NCBI GenBank assembly: GCA_029263395.1
Contig: JAJCXO010000100.1
Span: forward strand, 1 to 64,000
DNA: 64,000 nt
Direction of reading: 5' to 3'
Origin: Acidobacteriota bacterium
GTDB lineage: Bacteria; Acidobacteriota; Thermoanaerobaculia; Multivoradales; J023
Below the pieces are notes generated by a model that was not told the DNA's origin, did no database searches, and worked only from the letters and a program-made list of their open reading frames with translations. Positions within the stretch are counted from its first letter, which is position 1; every line of letters starts with the position of its first letter. Both the position numbers and the translations under genes were made by a program. This document shows, piece by piece, positions 2,849 to 41,551 of this stretch.

Positions 2849-5800
2849 TTATTCCACGTCCCAATCGATCGCCAGCGTCTCGGGCGGATCTTCCAGGTAC
2901 GGCAGATGCGGCAAGCCGGCCTCGTCACAGAGCGCATCCAAAGCGACGAAGGAACCATCCGGTAACATCACATCACCGCGGACGATAAAACGTAGGCCCC
3001 AACGTAACGGACCGTCCTCAACCCGGTCAGGATCCCGAGCCAATCCCTCGAGCAGGGCCCGATCCGCAGCGTCTGAGCGCCGCGCCAGGTGACGCGCTAG
3101 AGCTGGCCACACCGGTTCCAAGCTCGGGCCGTGATCGTCGAGGGCACGGGCGAGCTCCGCTGCGTCGGCTTCTGGAGCGTTCGTCAGACGACAGCCCGAC
3201 GCCAACAACTGCACCACTGGCGGCGCCGTCTGCGAACGGTTGGCGGCCAACACCGAGCGCCCGACAACCCGACCCGGAGATTTCCACTCGATGTCTGAAA
3301 AGTTGAACAACCAGGAATGTTGATCGAGGTCGAGCCCCCACTTATCCGCAAAGTAGCCCGAAAGCTCCCCGCCCAGGTCGGTTGCGAAATAACGCGAAAA
3401 GAACCGTCCCAAGTCTTTGGTGAAATCGGTTGCAAAGTCGCAGCCGAAGTAACGGGCGAAGTAGCGCACGAAATAAAAATCGAGATAACGCACCAGGCTC
3501 CCGACAACCTCACGATCGAAATAAGTTGACAGGTAGAGGGTGAAGTCGCGTGAAAAATCCCGCGCCAGATCTCGGGCAACCCTGGGAGGAAAGTCACGGC
3601 CAAAGTAGCTCGGCAGCCGCCGCGCCAAATCACGCACCGCGTCGAGCACCCAGTCCTCATTCTCTACCGACGGCAAGGTCAGGAGGTTGTCACACAACGA
3701 CGGGATGACCTCGGCCGGCGCCCCCGCCGCTACCAAGCTTTGCAACCGCAGGCCGGCCAGGCGTCGATGGCCAGGCCACACATTCAGAAACCCGATCGCG
3801 TCGTCGGGTGGCCAAAACGCAGCCCCCGAACACAACAAACGGCCGGCGGCGACAATCTCAGGCGACGACTCTATCGCTTGCAGAGCTTTCCCCTGCTGAC
3901 CCGTAGCCTGCGGACCCGTCGCCTGCTGACCCGAGAACGGCGCCAGCAAGGCACGCGGTACGGGTTGCCGGGGTTGTGGCACGCTCACCGGGATCAACGC
4001 CCACTCACACCACACCTGGCTCCGCAGATGCCCAAGCCAACTGAGGGACGCCGCCCGTCGGCTGACCGCGTCGACGAGATACGGCTTGCGCTCCTCTTGC
4101 CGGCAGAACGCCCAGGTTTTGGCCACTCGCAACGAGCCGATATCCAAGAAGTGATCAAACGCCGCAAAAAACCGTTCCGCCCAGGTTTCGAACGCCGCTT
4201 CGCTGCCAACGCCATCGGCAAACATATGCCCCGCCAGGCAAAGCCCTGGTTTGCTGTCGCCCAGGGCCGCGATGACCTCGTCCAGCCGTTCCGGGTTCTT
4301 CTTGTGGATCCGCGCCGCCCACAGCAGCAGTGTCTCGCGCCAGTAAGCAACGTCGAGCAAACGCCGGAAAACCGCGATCCGTGGCTCGGCCCCTTCCACC
4401 GTTGCGTCGAGGTGCCAGGCGGTTAGGTACTCCTGAAAGCTCAGGTGAACAAACGTCAAGGTCCGATCACTACGATCGACCAACAGCCCCGCCGGGCCAA
4501 CCAGCCAAGCCAGGAAGCCTTTACGCTGGCGCTCGCTCCACCTCGCGGGCAGCGCATCCATCGCCTCTTGCCAGCTGGCAGCAATGGCTCGACGGCCGCC
4601 CTCACGGTCTTCGGAGTCCTGGAGGCCATAAGCCAGCCCAGCCGCTGCCCGTTTACGCTCGTCGGCGTCATCCGGCCGCCACTGTCGCAACAACAGCTGT
4701 GCCCCGGTCTTCTCCTTTCGCTCGGTGCGGGCGGTAAGCAGGCTGTCGATGCAGGCTTCGTAGAGATCGTGGCGTTTGTCGGGCAGCGGCCTGGATCGGC
4801 TGATCAACAACATCATGGTCAACAGCAGCGGGGTACGCGCCAAGGTCTGGGCGTCAACCGACCGCGCCAGGGCATCCATGAAGGCTGCGGTGGAGCTCAC
4901 CTTGGAGCCCTCTTCGTCTCGGTAGCAACGCAGAAAAAAGTTGCGCGCCAGGCTTTCGATCTCCCCCCGGGCGCCTTCGCGACCGGCTGGGCTTGGTCTT
5001 CCAGCCGTGCCTAGTGTCCCAGATAGTGGCTGCAACTCGAGGGTCTCGAAGCCTTCGACATCGGCTGGACGCCCTTCACCGTAGGGTCGGCTCGACACCA
5101 CCACTTTGAGCCGTGGATAGAGGTGCATCAAGCCCACCAGCCGCTCGCGAACCTTCTCGCCGAGCGGACCAAGCTCGTCCCAGCCATCGACCAGCAGGAT
5201 GGGCGTCGGGCCGTTTTGTGCCTCGAAGATCTGCTTGACGTAACCCTTCTCCCAACCCGAGCCGATTTGCTCGGCGGCCCAGGCATCGAGGAACGCCTCC
5301 AGTGAACGCTCATTGCCGGCCAGCGCATCACTCCAATACATCGCCAAGTCGCGCAACACCAGCATCAACGGCAGGGCGTGTTCGAAGTCGAGCAGGCGCC
5401 GAAACGTCCAGCGCATCCAAGTGGTTTTGCCGGAGCCTGCCGAGCCACGGATCGCCAATGGTTTGGTGCGCCGCAGCAGCGCTTCCGGGGTGATCACCTC
5501 GCCTTGATCGAACTTGCCGAGATCGTAGTTGGTACCCAACCGCAGAGGGACGTACATGTCGTCGATCCGAACGTCGATCGGGTGGGTAGCGCCACCCACC
5601 TGGGTGACCCCGACGTTGGCCAAGTCCCAACGCGAATAGGCGCCCCGAAAGGCGATACGAAAGATGCGGACAAAGGCCATCAGATCCGCACGGTCGACGC
5701 TCTGTTCCACCGCCTCGTCGGGAGCCGCGCGGCGCGGAAAGTCCGCCGGTAGATCGAGGGTTTTTTCGTAATCGCCATCGGGGTCGGGCTTGAAGGCGCC

Positions 5801-22820: not shown

Positions 22821-24674
22821 TCACTCGATCGCTGACGCACGAATCGGAATCTGAGTCGAACCACCGCTGTGCTCGATCTCCAACCGCACGTTGCGTACAC
22901 CGCTAGACGTCGGCTTGAAGACGACTACAACACTGCAGGTTCGCCCAGGCGGCAGGGTCTTGTTGGAACATCGATCGTCATTGAGCTCGAACTCAGAGCC
23001 GGAAGCGGTTAACCGCAACCGTCGAATCTCGAGACCCGACCGACCTGAGCTGCGCAGCTCGACGCGTCGACGGGAGGACGTCCCAGAGGTGACGTCGCTG
23101 AAGTCGACTTCACCAGGATCCAGCGACAGGTTGGACACAGCGCCAAGACCATTGAGTCGAATTCGCTGCTGTCGATCGTCGGCATCATGACGCACGATCA
23201 ACTCAGCACGATGCGGCCCGGCACGGCGAGGTCGAAAGAACACCTCGACTACACATTCACTACCAGGTGGCACACTCGTAGCTGAACACCCTTGGGCGGC
23301 GAAGGATTCGGCATCAGTACCGGTGAGTTGGATCTCTCCGACGCCCAAACTGACGCCGCCGGTGCTAGCGATCCGCAACAATCGCGGGGCGCTCACAATC
23401 CGAACTCCAACTTCACCGAAACTCAATCGGGACGGATCAAAACGAGCATGCGGAGCGGTACCAAAACCGGAGAGGCTCACCCGCACGGACTTTTGGCCGG
23501 CAGTGGAGTCGATCGTGAGATAAGACTGGGCGGAGCTTTCGTCAGCTGGCCGGAAACGCACAGTGATGTCGCAAGCTCTACTCGGGGGCACCGGCCTATG
23601 GGTGCAGTTCTCGGAGACGATCTCGTAGACCCCGCCATAGGGCAGCTCTGTGAGCTGCACTCGGCGAACGGTCAGCGGTCCTTGTCCGTCGTTGGCGATC
23701 TTCACGACCTGACTAGGACTGGCTTCGCTAACCGCTATGCCGCCGAAGTCGAGTCGCTCCGGGTCGAGCCGCAGGACCGGTGTGTGATCGAGGCCTTGGC
23801 CGATCAAGGACACCTCGATCGGCTGGTCGTTGGCGTCACTCTCGATGCGCACGGTGGCCCGCCGTTCACCCTCGGCTCTGGGCACAAAGGTGAACCGGAC
23901 CACACAGCGTCCTCCGGGGGCGAGGTCGCGCGCCCCGCAGTCGTCGGACACTCGCAAAAAGTCGGCGGCGGCGCCTCCCGTCAATTCGATGCGGCCGAGA
24001 TAGAGTGCTGCGGTGCCTCGGTTATCGACCCTGAGATCAGCCGACGCACCACCGCGACCGATGACTTGCCGGCCAAAGTCGAGCTGTGCGGGTTCAACAT
24101 TGAGCTCCGGACGCACGCCGACACCACTCAACGCCACCGATTGCTGACCATTGATCGCGTTGCTGTCAACCCGCAGCCGAGCGCGGCGCGGGCCGCCCTG
24201 GCCGGGGCGGAACGCCAGCCGCACCTCGCATGCTTCCAAAGCTTCGATCTCGAGTCCGGCACATCCATCGGATGTGATCGCAAACTCGGCCGCAGCCTCC
24301 CCTTCCAAACCTGCGCTCGCCAGCCACAAGACTTCTTCCCCATGGTTGGCAATCCGAATCACCTGGTCATCACCGGAACGCCCCAAACGTACTTCGCCGA
24401 AGTCGAGCAGGCTGTCTGACAACACGGCCAACGGCGGTTCAGAACTCAGGAAGTAGCCCACCAAAGCACCGATCGGAAAGGCCAAGAGCAAGATCAACCA
24501 CAGCCAGGCGCCACGTGTTCGCGGCGGCCGACGCCGACGATCCAAAGAGCCGATGGTCTCGAGATCGCCAGCTCGCCGCAACGGCAGCTGAGGCGCACCG
24601 CCACGATCTCCAAGGGGCAGATCGAGCAGATCCGACGGGGGCGGAGGCAAGTCCTGCGGACGCTTGGCCATCAA
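22821..24674 (-). CDS. Choice-of-anchor D / ASH-domain membrane protein
   Basis: The 617-residue protein has a proline-rich cytoplasmic N-terminus (LPPPPSDLLDLPLGDR), one membrane segment at about 55-75 (AWLWLILLLAFPIGALVGYF), then five to six tandem immunoglobulin-like domains of the HYDIN/ASPM-SPD2 (choice-of-anchor D) type. Each domain repeats the pattern L-x-F-G-x-V, then A-x-x-F-x-x-x-x-x-x-C, L-x-P-G-x-x-C-x-V-x-V-x-F-x-P. Paired cysteines recur once per domain. It is likely an inner-membrane-anchored periplasmic scaffold. It lies one base from manA on the same strand. Confidence 0.85.
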   Translation of the reverse strand: MMAKRPQDLPPPPSDLLDLPLGDRGGAPQLPLRRAGDLETIGSLDRRRRPPRTRGAWLWLILLLAFPIGALVGYFLSSEPPLAVLSDSLLDFGEVRLGRSGDDQVIRIANHGEEVLWLASAGLEGEAAAEFAITSDGCAGLEIEALEACEVRLAFRPGQGGPRRARLRVDSNAINGQQSVALSGVGVRPELNVEPAQLDFGRQVIGRGGASADLRVDNRGTAALYLGRIELTGGAAADFLRVSDDCGARDLAPGGRCVVRFTFVPRAEGERRATVRIESDANDQPIEVSLIGQGLDHTPVLRLDPERLDFGGIAVSEASPSQVVKIANDGQGPLTVRRVQLTELPYGGVYEIVSENCTHRPVPPSRACDITVRFRPADESSAQSYLTIDSTAGQKSVRVSLSGFGTAPHARFDPSRLSFGEVGVRIVSAPRLLRIASTGGVSLGVGEIQLTGTDAESFAAQGCSATSVPPGSECVVEVFFRPRRAGPHRAELIVRHDADDRQQRIRLNGLGAVSNLSLDPGEVDFSDVTSGTSSRRRVELRSSGRSGLEIRRLRLTASGSEFELNDDRCSNKTLPPGRTCSVVVVFKPTSSGVRNVRLEIEHSGGSTQIPIRASAIE

Positions 24675-34839: not shown

Positions 34840-34916
34840 TGGCGGGGCCGACGGGACTCGAACCCGCGACCTCCGGCGTGACAGGCCGGCGTTCTAACCA
34901 GCTGAACTACGGCCCC
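34840..34916 (-). tRNA. tRNA-Asp (GTC)
   Basis: A 77-nt cloverleaf with encoded CCA. The acceptor is GGGGCCG/CGGCCCC with discriminator G, the D-arm is AGTTCAGCTGGTTAGA, the anticodon loop is CTGTCAC on a CCGGC/GCCGG-type stem, and the T-arm is GCGGGTTCGAGTCCCGT. The start GGGGCCGTAGTTCAG is the usual tRNA-Asp beginning. Confidence 0.97.
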
Positions 34917-34978
34917 GCATGACTTTGTCTTTGAAGCTCCGAAGACTGGGTAACGTTTGAGGCGAAAAGCCTCGTTTC

Positions 34979-35054
34979 TGGTGGGAGGTGTGGGACTTGA
35001 ACCCGCGACCCCCTGCGTGTAAGGCAGGTGCTCTACCAACTGAGCTAACCCCCC
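34979..35054 (-). tRNA. tRNA-Val (TAC)
   Basis: A 76-nt cloverleaf with encoded CCA. The acceptor is GGGGGGT/ACCTCCC with one G-T pair and discriminator A. The anticodon loop CTTACAC sits on CCTGC/GCAGG. The T-arm is GCGGGTTCAAGTCCCAC. It is upstream of tRNA-Asp on the same strand and probably co-transcribed. Confidence 0.97.
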
Positions 35055-35550: not shown

Positions 35551-35865
35551 ATGGAAGGCCTCAACAGTCAGCCAGCCAACAACCGCAGAATGACGAAAGT
35601 ATTCAAGGCTCTCGCGGACGGTACCCGTCAGGAGATCTTGCAGCTGCTTGAAGAGCACTCTTATGCTGTCGGCGAGATTGTCGCCAAGTTTGACTTGTCG
35701 CAACCGACGATCTCTCGCCACCTGTCGGTGCTCAAAGAGGCAGACCTCGTGATCGATCAACGCCGTGGGCAGAATGTCATCTATCGGCTCAATGACAGCG
35801 CTCTAGCGGCGTCGATGCGCCAGTTCTTCGGCCGGTTTCGCAGCTGTCAAGAAGTCCTACGCTAG
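35551..35865 (+). CDS. ArsR-family winged-helix transcriptional regulator
   Basis: The 104-residue protein has a winged helix from about 13 to 90: KVFKALADGTRQEILQLL, YAVGEIVAKFDLSQPTISRH with the recognition helix, then HLSVLKEADLV and the wing RRGQNVIYRLN. There is no cysteine-based metal site (no CxC), so it belongs with the autorepressor/SdpR-like members rather than the arsenic sensors. GGAGGAAAG lies before the ATG. No target gene is adjacent in the same direction. Confidence 0.92.
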   Translation: MEGLNSQPANNRRMTKVFKALADGTRQEILQLLEEHSYAVGEIVAKFDLSQPTISRHLSVLKEADLVIDQRRGQNVIYRLNDSALAASMRQFFGRFRSCQEVLR

Positions 35866-36136
35866 CTGACATCGCAGCCATCGAGATCCACCTGGCCGGG
35901 CTTCAAGATCCTCAACGAAGCTCGGAGCAGCCCAGGTGCCTCAAAAGGCGCTTGCGTCACCTCCACATGAAAGGTTAGGCTGTCGCGCTCGGTCTCGACC
36001 GTAGTCCATAGGGCTCGGCCGGTGTCAGGCCTCGCACTCGAGTGTTGCCTAGGCGCGTCATTCCCAATGGCGTACCAATTTGGGCCCAACACATTCGAGG
36101 CAAGACTGACGTGAGACGCGAAGAATTCGAGATGTG

Positions 36137-36213
36137 GCGGTGTAGCTCAGCTGGTTAGAGCGAGCGACTCATAATCGCTAGGTCAGGGGTTCAAGTCCCT
36201 TCACCGCTACCAT
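36137..36213 (+). tRNA. tRNA with CAT anticodon, probably tRNA-Ile2 (lysidine-modified)
   Basis: A 77-nt cloverleaf with encoded CCA. The acceptor is GGCGGTG/CACCGCT, the anticodon stem AGCGA/TCGCT with loop CTCATAA, the variable region AGGTC and discriminator A. A CAT anticodon can mean initiator Met, elongator Met or Ile2. The anticodon arm GCGACTCATAATCGCT is the same as in E. coli tRNA-Ile2 (ileX) and unlike its elongator Met. The gene sits about 135 bp upstream of tilS, whose product modifies exactly this tRNA. Confidence 0.9.
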
Positions 36214-36347
36214 TCGATCACGCTACGGCTCTCGACCCACGTCTTCCGCATCTAGGGATGCATGTGCAACTTACCAAGGCTGCCCTCGCAATCTGGCTGT
36301 CGCCTCCCTGACATCGCCCATAGACCTTGAATCGCGATAGATAGGCT

Positions 36348-37799
36348 GTGCGTTTGCACTCTGACTTGTCGAATCCGCCAAGGCCCTCTGCACTGGTTGA
36401 GGTGCTCACCAGCACTTTTCGCAACCTGGCTAAGGCTGGCGATCGTGTGTTGGTGGCGTTTTCAGGTGGACCGGATTCAACGGCTCTACTCTGGGGCTTG
36501 ACCCTGATAGCCGGTGACCTCGGGCTAGACATCCACGCCGCTCACTTCGACCATGGACTCGACCCCGACTCCACTCGACGAGCGCGTGAAGCACGACGCT
36601 TGGCGATGGAGCTAGACGTCCCAATCGTGGTCGAAAATCTGGCGAAGACGCCGGTAGACCGCGGCGCAGAGAGTCACGAAGCGTTGGCCCGCCGGCATCG
36701 TTACGCTTTTCTCAACCGGCTTGCAACCCGGCACCAAGCACGTTTCGTCGTCACCGCACATCACGCCGATGATCAGGCCGAAACCGTCCTTCTCCGAATG
36801 CTCTTCGGTAGTGGACTCGAGGGGCTGGGTGCAATGCGACGGGTACGAGGTCGTCTTGTGAGGCCACTGCTGCCGTTGCGGCGGGCCGAGATTGCGAAGG
36901 CCCTCCAAACCTCCGGCCTGCAGCCGGTAATGGATCCTACCAACCTCGACCTGTCGACGCCTCGCAACTCGGTCCGTGCCAGCCTGCTGCCGCATCTCGA
37001 ACGGACTACCCCAAACGTCTGTCCCCAACTCTGTCGCCTCGCATCGGTGGCTCAGCGCGCCAGCCGAAGTGTGGAGCTTGCTCTGCGACCCCTTCTCGAG
37101 CTGCGCCCGATCCACGATGTCGCCGGCCAGCCGCGAGGCGCGGCGTGCGATCGTCGAGCCATCGAGACTCTGCCCATGCCGCTGGTTTCGCCTGCCCTGG
37201 CGCTACTGCACCGCGAGGCAGGAGTGCCTTATCCAGCGAGCGCTGCGGCCCGCGCCGAGCTCGAGCGGCAGCTTCGGGCGGCCGGCAGCTTGGGCTGTGA
37301 TTGCGGCGCGGGGTGGCGTTGGGAGGGTGACGCCAAGACGCTTTGTCTGACCAAGACCGCATCTTCTGCGGGGGAATTCACGTATACTCTATATGCACCG
37401 GGGTCGGTGGACATTCCGGAGCTCGAACTCAGGGTCTATCTGACACGTGGACAGCTTGCTCCCTGGATGTTTCGTGGTCGCGCTGACCGAGCTGGTCTAG
37501 CAGACTTCGGCAGACGTCAAGTGGTGGTGAGAAATCGGCGATCCGGTGACCGAATTCGACCTCTGGGCTGTACTCGATCACGAAGCCTCAAGGACCTGCT
37601 GATCGATCGGCGGGTTCCACGGCGTGAGCGTGATCGACTACCGCTTTTGGTGATCGACGACGAAATTGCATGGGTGCCGGGAGTGACAATCAGTGAGAGC
37701 TTTCGACTCCGCAACGACCCCTCAGTATGGATCGCAGAGTTGGAACGAAGCGATAAAACAGTCCTTGAGCCGACCGGCAACGCCGGTGCGGTGACTTGA
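36348..37799 (+). CDS. tilS: tRNA(Ile)-lysidine synthase TilS
   Basis: The 483-residue protein is full length, with the N-terminal PP-loop ATPase (LVAFSGGPDSTALLWGL), AAHFDHGLDPDS and VTAHHADDQAETVLLRMLFG. The central recognition domain follows, and the C-terminal TilS domain has RNRRSGDRIRPLG and SLKDLLIDRRVPRRERDRLP. It adds lysine to C34 of tRNA-Ile(CAU), turning a Met-type anticodon into an AUA reader. ftsH follows after 17 bp, the order seen in many bacteria. Confidence 0.96.
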   Translation: MRLHSDLSNPPRPSALVEVLTSTFRNLAKAGDRVLVAFSGGPDSTALLWGLTLIAGDLGLDIHAAHFDHGLDPDSTRRAREARRLAMELDVPIVVENLAKTPVDRGAESHEALARRHRYAFLNRLATRHQARFVVTAHHADDQAETVLLRMLFGSGLEGLGAMRRVRGRLVRPLLPLRRAEIAKALQTSGLQPVMDPTNLDLSTPRNSVRASLLPHLERTTPNVCPQLCRLASVAQRASRSVELALRPLLELRPIHDVAGQPRGAACDRRAIETLPMPLVSPALALLHREAGVPYPASAAARAELERQLRAAGSLGCDCGAGWRWEGDAKTLCLTKTASSAGEFTYTLYAPGSVDIPELELRVYLTRGQLAPWMFRGRADRAGLADFGRRQVVVRNRRSGDRIRPLGCTRSRSLKDLLIDRRVPRRERDRLPLLVIDDEIAWVPGVTISESFRLRNDPSVWIAELERSDKTVLEPTGNAGAVT

Positions 37800-37816: not shown

Positions 37817-39784
37817 TTGAATTCCACATTCAGATCCCTCTTGTTCTGGATCGTCATCTTCGGAGTGGTGGTCCTCCTCTGGCAAACCGTCCAAAGTGGG
37901 ACCAACGAGACTCAGGAGCTGACTTTCAGTGAGTTCCTGGCTGCCGTCGAAGACGAGCAGGTCGAGCAGGTCACGATGAAGGAAAGCGAGATCTTCGGGC
38001 GCTTCAAGGGTAGTCCGCAACCCGAAGGCAAGTTCGATTTCTACACCCAGCATCCAGAATACCCCGACCTGACGCGAATCCTCTACGAAGCCGAAGTCGA
38101 GATCTCGGCTGAAAAGCCCAAAGATAGCCCTCTCTTGGCCATCTTTCTCACCTGGGGTCCAGTGCTGTTGATTGTCGGCTTGTGGATCTTCTTCATGCGC
38201 CAGTTCCAAGCTGGCGGCAACAAGGCGTTGTCCTTTGGCAAGAGCAAAGCCAAGCTACTCAACAGCACTGGCAAGAAGGTCACCTTCGACGATGTCGCAG
38301 GCATCGAAGAGGCCAAGGCCGAACTCGCTGAGGTTGTGGAATTCCTCAAAGAGCCCCAGAAGTTTCAGAAGCTCGGAGGCAAGATCCCCAAGGGTGTCCT
38401 GCTGATGGGTGCTCCAGGAACTGGCAAGACGCTGTTGGCGCGCGCTATTGCTGGTGAGGCCAACGTGCCCTTCTTCTCAATCTCGGGCTCCGACTTCGTG
38501 GAGATGTTTGTCGGCGTCGGCGCCAGTCGCGTCCGCGACCTCTTTGACCAGGGGAAGAAGAACGCCCCGTGTATCATCTTCATCGACGAGATTGATGCTG
38601 TCGGCCGTCACCGTGGTGCCGGCCTCGGCGGCGGACACGACGAGCGGGAACAAACGTTGAATCAGTTGTTGGTCGAGATGGACGGCTTCGAAACCAACGA
38701 AGGTGTCATCCTGATTGCTGCCACCAATCGGCCCGACGTGCTCGATCCAGCGCTTCAGCGCCCGGGTCGCTTCGATCGTTCTATTGTCGTCGACCGCCCC
38801 GACATCAACGGCCGCGTCGGCATCCTCCGCGTTCACACCCGCAACGTACCGCTGGAAACGGATGTTGATCTCAAGGTGGTCGCCCGCGGCACGCCGGGCT
38901 TTGCTGGCGCCGATCTCGCCAATCTGGTCAACGAGGCAGCTCTCATCGCGGCCCGACGTGACAAGAAAAAAGTCGAGATGGAGGACTTCGAGTACGCCAA
39001 GGACAAGGTTGTAATGGGCGTCGAGCGTAAGACGCTGATGCTCACCGATGAGGAGAAGGAGATCACGGCCTATCATGAGGCTGGGCACGCCCTGGTTGCG
39101 GCCTTTACTCCCGGCACCGACCCCCTCCACAAAGTCACCATCATTCCCCGAGGACGCGCTCTCGGCCTCACCATGCAGCTGCCGACCGAAGACAAGCACA
39201 GCTTGAAGAAGCAGTATGTCGAAAGTCAGATTGCAGTCTTGATGGGTGGACGCGTCGCCGAAGAGCTGACTCAACTGGATATCACCACCGGTGCTGGCAA
39301 CGACATCGTCCGGGCCACTGAGATGGCTCGTCAGATGGTTTGCGATTGGGGGATGTCCGAGCTTGGACCATTGGCTCTCGGTGCCAAGGAAGAGCCGGTG
39401 TTTTTGGGGCGAGATTACACGCAACGCTCCAACTACAGCGAGAGCACAGCAGTCAAGATCGACGACGCCGTCAACAGGATCGTCAACGAGGGATTAGAGA
39501 AAGCACGGCACATCTTGACGGAGTACCGCGCTGCCTTGGAGCGCATCGCCCACGAGCTGCTCGATCGCGAGTCGCTCGATGGCCACGAGGTCTACGAGAT
39601 GATCGAAGAAGTAACGGACCTCGATGTCATGCCGCAGTCCCTGAAGATCAAACTCGAAGAGGCTGCCGCAAGGGCTGAAGAAAAATCTAACGGGCACGAC
39701 GAAGACACACCGGTCCAAGCCGCTCCTGAGCCGGAAGAGCCACCCATCACCGGTGACTCACTGCCTTCGCCGGCCGCATCTTGA
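37817..39784 (+). CDS. ftsH: ATP-dependent zinc metalloprotease FtsH
   Basis: The 655-residue protein has two membrane helices (about 5-24 and 110-130) flanking a periplasmic domain. The AAA+ domain has Walker A GAPGTGKT, Walker [12 protein letters not shown] and the second region of homology [20 protein letters not shown]. The M41 protease has zinc motif HEAGH. The pore motif [12 protein letters not shown] is present. The start is TTG at 37817 with AGG upstream; no ATG is nearby. It degrades membrane and unstable cytosolic proteins. The acidic, proline-rich tail is variable in the family. The 3' end overlaps the longest possible folP frame. Confidence 0.98.
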
Positions 39785-39806
39785 CAGCCGATCGGACACG
39801 GATCGC

Positions 39807-40706
39807 GTGGCACCGAATCTGACCGCCAATCGTTCCTGGACTCTTCAGCTACCACGCGGGCGAACTCTCGCTCTCGACCACAAACCCCGGGTCATGGGGG
39901 TGCTCAATGTCACCCCCGACTCGTTCTCGGACGGTGGCCTGTGGCTGGCTCCCGACCAGGCTGTAGAACATGGCCTGACTATGGTCGCCCAGGGTGCGGA
40001 AATCCTCGATCTCGGCGCTGAGTCGACACGCCCTGGTGGCGGCGTTTATGGAGACGGTGGCGGACGAGTGTCAGCCACGGAAGAAATCGACCGGCTACTA
40101 CCGGTGCTCGAGGCGTTGCGTCGCGAGGTTGATTTGCCGCTATCCGCCGATACCCGCAAGGGTGCTGTGGCAGCGGCGGCCATCGCTGCTGGCGCCGATC
40201 TGATCAACGACGTCGGCGGACTCGCTGATCCTGAAATGATATCCGTGGTGGCGCAGACCGGCTGCCCAGTCATCGTCATGCATAGCCGTGGTGAACTCGC
40301 AACGATGCAAAAGAACATCCGTTTCGAAGACGTCACTGGTGAGGTCTGCGACGATCTCCAACAGACTCGTCAAACCGCCGTGGGCCACGGCATTCGCGAC
40401 CAACAGCTGGTCTTCGATCCCGGCATCGGCTTTGGCAAGACGAGCCGCAACAACCTCCAGTTGCTGAGGGAGCTGGATCGACTCGCGGCTCTCGGTCGCC
40501 CGGTCCTGGTCGGGGCCAGTCGCAAGAGCTTCATCTCTCAGGTTCGATCAGCACCACCGACAGAACGCCTCGGCGGTAGCCTGGCCGCGGTGGGTTGGGC
40601 GACCCGTTCCGGAACATCGATCGTACGAGTCCACGATATCGCCGCTACAAGACAGTTCCTAGATGTATGGAATGCGATAGATTCGGCTGCGGCGGAGAGC
40701 GCCTGA
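39807..40706 (+). CDS. folP: Dihydropteroate synthase FolP
   Basis: The product has about 299 residues from the GTG at 39807, giving WTLQLPRGRTLALD then MGVLNVTPDSFSDGG; an ATG at 39753 inside ftsH is an alternative. Further motifs are LDLGAESTRPGG, LINDVGGLADP, VIVMHSRGE, DPGIGFGKTSRNN and GASRKSF. It condenses para-aminobenzoate with the pterin diphosphate in folate synthesis, and is the sulfonamide target. It shares the transcript with ftsH and the cdaA operon. Confidence 0.95.
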   Translation: MAPNLTANRSWTLQLPRGRTLALDHKPRVMGVLNVTPDSFSDGGLWLAPDQAVEHGLTMVAQGAEILDLGAESTRPGGGVYGDGGGRVSATEEIDRLLPVLEALRREVDLPLSADTRKGAVAAAAIAAGADLINDVGGLADPEMISVVAQTGCPVIVMHSRGELATMQKNIRFEDVTGEVCDDLQQTRQTAVGHGIRDQQLVFDPGIGFGKTSRNNLQLLRELDRLAALGRPVLVGASRKSFISQVRSAPPTERLGGSLAAVGWATRSGTSIVRVHDIAATRQFLDVWNAIDSAAAESA

Positions 40707-40744
40707 GTTCGCCTTCGACCCCTTCTTTGCTCCGCCCTGCCACT

Positions 40745-41551
40745 ATGGATTTTTCGCTACAAACTCTCGAGCAACTGCTACAACCGGTGTCACGCTGGCA
40801 GGATCTCTTAGATCTCCTGCTGGTAACGTTGGTGCTTTACAACTTCTTGTTGTTAGTGCGCGGCACCCGGGCGGTACAAGTGCTCATCGGTATTCTGGTG
40901 CTGGTTGTCCTGCATTCCATCGCGGAGGCAGTCGACCTACCTGCTCTCGAGAATACCCTCGAGAAATTTTTTCTAATCTTGCCACTAGCCCTGATCGTGC
41001 TGTTCCAGCAGGAGATCAGGCGGGCCCTAGCCAACTTTGGCACCACGTCACTGTGGAGCTTCGGTAATCGCGAGAAGATTGCGGGTACCTTCAATGCAAT
41101 CGGATTGGCGGCGTCTACTCTCGCCGAGCGCCGGGTTGGGGCTTTGATCGTGTTCGAACGTCTCGAGGGGCTACGCAACTACATCGAAAACGGCATCGAG
41201 CTCGATGCAGTGGTTTCTGTCGACCTGCTGATCAGCCTGTTTACCCCCGATACGCCAACCCACGACGGCGCGGTGATCATTCAAGACGATCGTATTGCGG
41301 CCGCTACCTGCTTTTTGCCGTTGACTCAGAGCGCCGAGCTGTCTACCGAGCTCGGCACGAGGCACCGGGCAGCATTGGGGATCACCGAAGAGACCGACGC
41401 AGTTGCCGTCGTCGTGTCCGAAGAGACCGGCAATATCTCGATAGCCTTCGGCGGCGAAATGATTCAAGGACTCGAATCGAAAGACCTCCGCAATCGTCTA
41501 CACAAGTTCATGCTTTCGGACGTCCGCCCGGGTGGGGTATCGAACAAATGA
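40745..41551 (+). CDS. cdaA: Diadenylate cyclase CdaA
   Basis: The 268-residue protein starts at the ATG at 40745. Three membrane helices fill residues 20-95 (LLDLLLVTLVLYNFLLLV and following), then the DAC domain. The catalytic motifs are THDGAVII (DGA) and TRHRAALGITEETDA (RHR). It makes c-di-AMP from two ATP. The stop overlaps the cdaR start as ATGA. The cdaA-cdaR-glmM order is conserved in Firmicutes, and finding it here supports the assignment. Confidence 0.97.
   Translation: MDFSLQTLEQLLQPVSRWQDLLDLLLVTLVLYNFLLLVRGTRAVQVLIGILVLVVLHSIAEAVDLPALENTLEKFFLILPLALIVLFQQEIRRALANFGTTSLWSFGNREKIAGTFNAIGLAASTLAERRVGALIVFERLEGLRNYIENGIELDAVVSVDLLISLFTPDTPTHDGAVIIQDDRIAAATCFLPLTQSAELSTELGTRHRAALGITEETDAVAVVVSEETGNISIAFGGEMIQGLESKDLRNRLHKFMLSDVRPGGVSNK

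Follow-up and report, generated by a model that had tools for sequence, protein, structure and literature searches.

In bacteria, tRNA genes are known ahead of protein genes, and operons that join tRNAs with an mRNA exist, such as thrU-tyrU-glyT-thrT-tufB in E. coli. Bacteria require three tRNAs with the CAT anticodon, which are one initiator tRNA-Met, one elongator tRNA-Met and one tRNA-Ile2. The three kinds are easily confused, and a common anticodon arm is not enough to call a tRNA Ile2. The authors of tRNAscan-SE 2.0 report that, despite dedicated models, Met and Ile2 exchanged labels in 46 genomes out of 4036 from bacteria (PMC8450103). E. coli TilS, the tRNA(Ile2)-lysidine synthetase, reads the acceptor pairs C4:G69 and C5:G68, and TilS of different species use different recognition elements (PMC12514573). 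A linkage of tRNA-Met with tilS was not found described in the open-licence literature, as covered by titles and abstract openings on linkage, tRNA-led transcripts and CAT tRNA annotation.

The DNA analysed here, called the window, is a stretch of 64,000 nucleotides on contig C100 of an Acidobacteriota genome. The assembly comprises 291 contigs with 10.68 Mb in total and is 96.3% complete. The nearest named TilS relatives of this genome are Acidobacteria MAGs. In the window, a CAT tRNA gene stands directly upstream of tilS. The original prediction took this tRNA for tRNA-Ile2, the substrate of TilS, and our analysis assigns it to elongator tRNA-Met.

Gene organization around tilS in the window

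The tRNA gene (36136–36212, plus strand, CCA encoded) was found by both ARAGORN and Rfam RF00005 (70.8 bits). tilS follows on the same strand at 36348–37799, with a GTG start and 483 amino acids. The tilS ORF scores 158.6 bits with TIGR02432 (cut-off 93.6), 52.1 bits with TIGR02433 (cut-off 20.2) and 71.3 bits with PF11734 (cut-off 22). PF01171 matches as well. Both the PP-loop N-terminal and the TilS C-terminal domains exceed the curated cut-offs of the Pfam and NCBIfam models, and this ORF is the only one among the TilS matches listed for the genome. The spacer between the tRNA 3' end and the ORF is 135 bp (36213–36347). Thus, a CAT tRNA does lie upstream of and next to tilS on the same strand, as originally proposed, with the start corrected by one base and the spacer from 134 to 135 bp. 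tilS could also begin at other in-frame codons as far as 240 nt from the tRNA, one of them being a GTG at 189 nt. A consensus scan of 35850–36460 detected neither a sigma-70-like promoter nor an intrinsic-terminator-like site, the promoter scan covering sigma-70-type sites only.

Downstream on the plus strand, ftsH (37817–39784; TIGR01241, 857.1 bits, cut-off 600) begins 17 bp past tilS and probably belongs to the same operon. It is followed by folP for dihydropteroate synthase (39753–40706; TIGR01496), whose ORF overlaps ftsH and whose true start is probably further inside, and by cdaA for diadenylate cyclase (40595–41551; TIGR00159), whose ORF start overlaps folP. Upstream of the tRNA lies a gene for an ArsR/SdpR-like regulator (35551–35865, plus strand; NF033788, PF01022). 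A tblastn match to this regulator was present at 25 of 30 tilS loci of the same order, the window's own counted, with about 60–90% identity outside its own genome. A tRNA-Asp and tRNA-Val pair (34840–35054) is divergent from the arsR/tRNA-Met/tilS unit; families f3 and f9 also have this pair close to tilS, as do some f4 genomes with the opposite orientation. ARAGORN also called a tRNA-Ala(ggc) at 4173–4244 on the minus strand, below the Rfam cut-off, which is probably false because another Ala(ggc) is present on a different contig. The codon AUA is rare in the seven ORFs counted (5 ATA, 28 ATT and 80 ATC).

CAT tRNAs of the window genome

The window tRNA carries GCGACTCATAATCGCT in common with E. 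coli K-12 ileX, so the identity of the two anticodon arms claimed originally holds, and its anticodon loop CTCATAA has C32 and A38, a feature of 34/34 tRNAs in the Ile2 cluster described below. This match is insufficient for Ile2, because few stem pairs are involved: other linked tRNAs of the same order have GCGGCTCATAACCGC or, in family f4, U38. ARAGORN labelled the gene tRNA-Met; the original prediction had expected this automatic label as an error, and the label itself is correct.

With 150 of 233 first-look candidates scored, Rfam matched tRNAs at 45 places of the genome, and ARAGORN around these matches identified three distinct CAT tRNAs. One is an initiator on contig C221, which carries C1 and A72. 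The second is the window tRNA, with the acceptor GGCGGTG/CACCGCT; it pairs G1-U72 and is without the initiator-type C1xA72 mismatch. The third is at positions 24138–24210 of contig C284, with the acceptor GGGTCCA/TGGACCC. A CAT pattern search of the genome allowing 3 mismatches led to no further CAT tRNA (one place on contig C43 was checked). No elongator tRNA-Met other than the window tRNA was found in this genome.

At the two identity pairs of E. coli TilS, the window tRNA carries G4-C69 and G5-C68 and thus has neither, and the C284 tRNA has U4-A69 and C5-G68, which is one of the two pairs. The acceptor-pair rule (PMC12514573) agrees with the Met class predicted for the window tRNA; given the differences between species, it is support and not proof.

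Elsewhere in the genome, unusual tRNAs (Tyr, Leu tag, Leu gag, Leu caa and Ser gct) form a closely packed array on contig C265 (12567–13118). Its Leu tRNAs are just 77 nt and lack the long variable arm, and the array is possibly that of a mobile element or phage. tRNA-Ile(GAT) and tRNA-Ala(TGC) were absent among the tRNAs read, perhaps because rRNA operons are absent from the assembly.

Clustering and covariance models

A pattern search over 49 named genomes from many phyla yielded 81 elongator-like CAT tRNAs in 47 of them. Positions 26–73 of these 81, of the two from the window genome, of E. coli ileX and of E. coli metT/U were used for k-means clustering. Two clusters were obtained. All 23 genomes with exactly two members were split with one member per cluster. 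Another 5 genomes had three or four members, of which exactly one per genome belonged to the smaller cluster. E. coli ileX was placed together with the C284 tRNA in the smaller (Ile2) cluster, and metT/U together with the window tRNA. C32, A38 and G68 were present in 34/34 tRNAs of the Ile2 cluster.

Two other sorting methods were dropped. Average linkage split off just four rows; Ward linkage parted 21 of the 23 pairs but grouped the window tRNA with ileX and the C284 tRNA with metT/U. Because neither reproduced the k-means classes, a second test with held-out models was made. Two covariance models, one for Met and one for Ile2, were built from 20 tRNAs each from genomes not titled Acidobacteria; the training labels came from the k-means split, and the models were tested on sequences outside the training set. 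The window tRNA scored 93.3 bits as Met and 77.9 bits as Ile2 (margin 15.4), and the C284 tRNA scored 93.2 bits as Ile2 and 75.7 bits as Met (margin 17.5). E. coli ileX scored 88.7 bits as Ile2 and 76.5 bits as Met. For E. coli metT and metU the margin was thin, at 1.7 bits (82.6 as Met and 80.9 as Ile2).

The same models were applied to the order of the window genome. The other tilS-linked tRNAs scored higher as Met in 26/26 cases, and the unlinked tRNAs scored higher as Ile2 in 18/18 tested (20 were fetched, and the incomplete L386 and L387 were left out). The tilS-linked tRNA of family f4 has U38 at 10/10 loci fetched, a base found in 0/34 tRNAs of the Ile2 cluster, and outside the order, 13 of the 14 linked loci of the phylum likewise have U38 in their linked tRNA. 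Within the order, other linked tRNAs carry GCGGCTCATAACCGC in place of GCGACTCATAATCGCT.

Taken together, the sequence evidence groups the window tRNA with Met. We conclude that it is an elongator tRNA-Met and not tRNA-Ile2, its charging and its reading of AUG being predictions, and that the C284 tRNA is the predicted true substrate of TilS, tRNA-Ile2, encoded apart from tilS. Classifying the CAT tRNAs of the genome, as the original prediction had suggested, therefore overturns its Ile2 assignment, since the C284 tRNA is clearly better as Ile2 and the window tRNA scores as Met. The proposed linkage of the enzyme with its own substrate falls with that assignment. Of the suggested co-regulation, a plausible co-expression is retained, with tRNA-Met, a predicted non-substrate of TilS, as the partner.

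Distribution of the linkage

To score linkage, TilS was located with an HMM built from an alignment, and the 1 kb ahead of it was searched for a CAT tRNA of equal orientation. A locus without a match was judged only if at least 400 bp of upstream sequence was available, and the loci of each search are the best-scoring matches and not random draws. In the window's order, 44 of 46 judged genomes were linked, the window's own counted (27/28 loci and 17/19 further ones, of which five, L449–L453, were chosen as already known to be linked). All nine families of the order are represented, and 13 of 59 genomes were not judged. One locus, L454, is genome G020 again, with the tRNA 6.2 kb upstream, and was already counted as unlinked. 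The synteny in related genomes, proposed as a check in the original prediction, is thus borne out, and the adjacency of tRNA and tilS is not due to chance, given how nearly universal the pair is among these 46 genomes.

Among other Acidobacteriota, linkage was found at 14/28 loci, in a sample around a Desulfuromonadales MAG at 4/29, and in Chloroflexota at 11/29, two of these with an initiator only. In the phylum of G094 (titles Calditrichaeota and KSB1) all 30/30 loci were linked, 28 with both initiator and elongator, and in the phylum of G096 (title Atribacteria) 24/24 were linked, 10 with both. No CAT tRNA was present within 1 kb upstream of tilS in Pseudomonadota (0/30) or Bacillota (0/30). 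Named tilS loci were linked in 12/80 cases; these come partly from the same genomes as the samples, so the sets are not additive. At five named Bacillota loci a Met tRNA lies 3.2–4.7 kb upstream of tilS, on the same strand in four. Among unlinked loci, a different tRNA occurs in the 1 kb upstream of tilS just once, on the opposite strand. ftsH follows tilS at 12/12 linked named loci; it is not specific to linkage, because 47 of 67 judged unlinked loci also show it.

The identity of the linked tRNA was also scored at 40 further loci. An elongator-type CAT tRNA was near tilS in 38, and 36 of these scored higher as Met; among the 38, the tRNAs of L099, L147 and L156 were also in the training set, and that of L170 is antisense to tilS. 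The remaining two, from Chloroflexota (L230 and L232), were 0.1 bit higher as Ile2, and the other Chloroflexota margins were 0.9 to 7.8 bits, several of them near a tie. All elongator-type tRNAs linked to tilS in the phyla of G094 and G096 carry A32 or C38, unlike the Ile2 cluster. None of the linked tRNAs scored was clearly Ile2. At the loci tested here, adjacency to tilS signals Met and not Ile2.

Spacing and possible transcription of the unit

tilS appears to begin no more than about 20 nt past the tRNA at 11/24 loci of the order, 7/14 in the rest of the phylum, 10/30 in the phylum of G094 and 9/24 in the phylum of G096. A simple rule was used to pick the start codons, and loci of the order enter the count where a start could be called. 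At L082 (G007), the only ATG/GTG/TTG start found for tilS falls within the tRNA-Met gene, whose 3' end is 28 nt further on, and at L083 (G018) no such start was found. A lack of Shine-Dalgarno sites in linked tilS messages was also considered and dropped, since unlinked Acidobacteriota are also without them in 10/14 and the start codons are uncertain.

Such short spacers put any promoter of tilS alone inside the tRNA gene, and we therefore infer that tilS is read from the tRNA transcript. From gene order and spacing, tRNA-Met and tilS are likely co-transcribed, although a tilS promoter may lie inside the tRNA gene or within the 135-bp spacer of the window. In the mechanism we propose, tRNA-Met would head a conserved unit with tilS and then ftsH, and the tRNA promoter would drive a joint tRNA-Met/tilS transcript. 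RNase P and a 3' endonuclease would excise the tRNA, and tilS would be translated from the remainder or from the uncut transcript. The benefit could be that the level of TilS is tied to the supply of CAU tRNAs.

As a whole, our preferred reading is that the sole elongator tRNA-Met, a near-cognate non-substrate of TilS, leads a tilS-ftsH unit transcribed most likely from the tRNA promoter, and that tRNA-Ile2 is encoded on C284. We give this reading a probability of about 65%. The conserved order of tRNA-Met and tilS offers a simple testable case in which tRNA supply may govern how much of an essential tRNA-modifying enzyme is present.

Alternative explanations and origin of the linkage

The original view, in which TilS is linked to its own substrate Ile2, can appeal to the anticodon arm shared with ileX, to the loop CUCAUAA with A38 and to the Ward placement beside ileX. 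We regard it as highly improbable. It would force the C284 tRNA to be the elongator Met, against the opposite model margins of the two tRNAs, and it has to face linked tRNAs in the same position with U38 (f4) or with A32 or C38 (phyla of G094 and G096), as well as the absence of both E. coli acceptor pairs from the window tRNA. An improbable explanation too is autoregulation, in which TilS would bind the tRNA-Met part of its own transcript as a decoy and repress itself. That the linked tRNA on the same strand was always CAU and never clearly Ile2 fits such a decoy, and E. coli TilS is weakly active on tRNA-Met at high concentration, but the other TilS enzymes tested gave no measurable modification of tRNA-Met (PMC12514573). 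Moreover, the array frequently includes initiator tRNAs, which stand alone at two Chloroflexota loci.

A plain old gene order, with tRNA-Met and tilS as neighbours by descent, under separate promoters and with no functional coupling, is a real though doubtful possibility. It would account for the recurrence of initiator, elongator and tilS in distant phyla and for the dispensability of the pair (0/60 Pseudomonadota and Bacillota loci within 1 kb). However, with a tilS start about 20 nt or less past the tRNA in many relatives, a separate promoter would fall within the tRNA gene, and the pair is kept at 54/54 judged loci of two phyla.

The order initiator Met, elongator Met and tilS was found at a Desulfuromonadales locus (L111) and at KSB1/Calditrichota, Atribacteria and Chloroflexota loci, and the arrangement in the window may descend from it. 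However, linkage must have changed at least 20 times on a tree of 288 TilS segments built with FastTree, so the tree does not establish a single old origin and does not discriminate between one old origin followed by losses and several gains. A more speculative idea, which we hold to be unlikely, is an ancient operon sorting CAU tRNAs. In it, initiator Met, elongator Met and tilS would form one transcription unit predating the divergence of major bacterial lineages, and selection in several phyla would keep the non-substrate tRNAs, and not the substrate, tied to the enzyme. Excision of the tRNA would set the level of the tilS message, whose remaining leader would be very short. If so, the supply of tRNAs for AUG and the capacity for C34 conversion in Ile2 would rise and fall together.

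Comparison with known systems

E. coli ileX is like the window tRNA in the anticodon arm GCGACTCATAATCGCT and the CUCAUAA loop. It differs from the window tRNA in the acceptor stem, where the window tRNA is without C4:G69/C5:G68, and in having an 8-nt instead of a 9-nt D loop, A26 instead of G26 and U44 instead of A44; its Ile2 score is 88.7 bits, against 77.9 for the window tRNA. E. coli metT/metU share with the window tRNA the k-means class, the model-score class, the 9-nt D loop and the lack of the Ile2 acceptor pairs; however, their anticodon stem differs, and they lie in a Gln/Leu tRNA array away from tilS. In the Bacillota Paenactinomyces, Shimazuella and Paenibacillus flagellatus, an elongator-like Met tRNA is upstream of tilS on the same strand, but far off, at 3.5–4.7 kb, and none is within 1 kb in 30/30 Bacillota loci. 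In B. subtilis, the trnSL genes include such a tRNA-Met upstream of the tilS-ftsH region. The thrU-tyrU-glyT-thrT-tufB operon of E. coli, like the window, places tRNA genes immediately before a gene of translation on one strand. In the window, by contrast, the gene product modifies tRNAs, the tRNA is its predicted near-cognate non-substrate, and a joint transcript is predicted from gene order and spacing.
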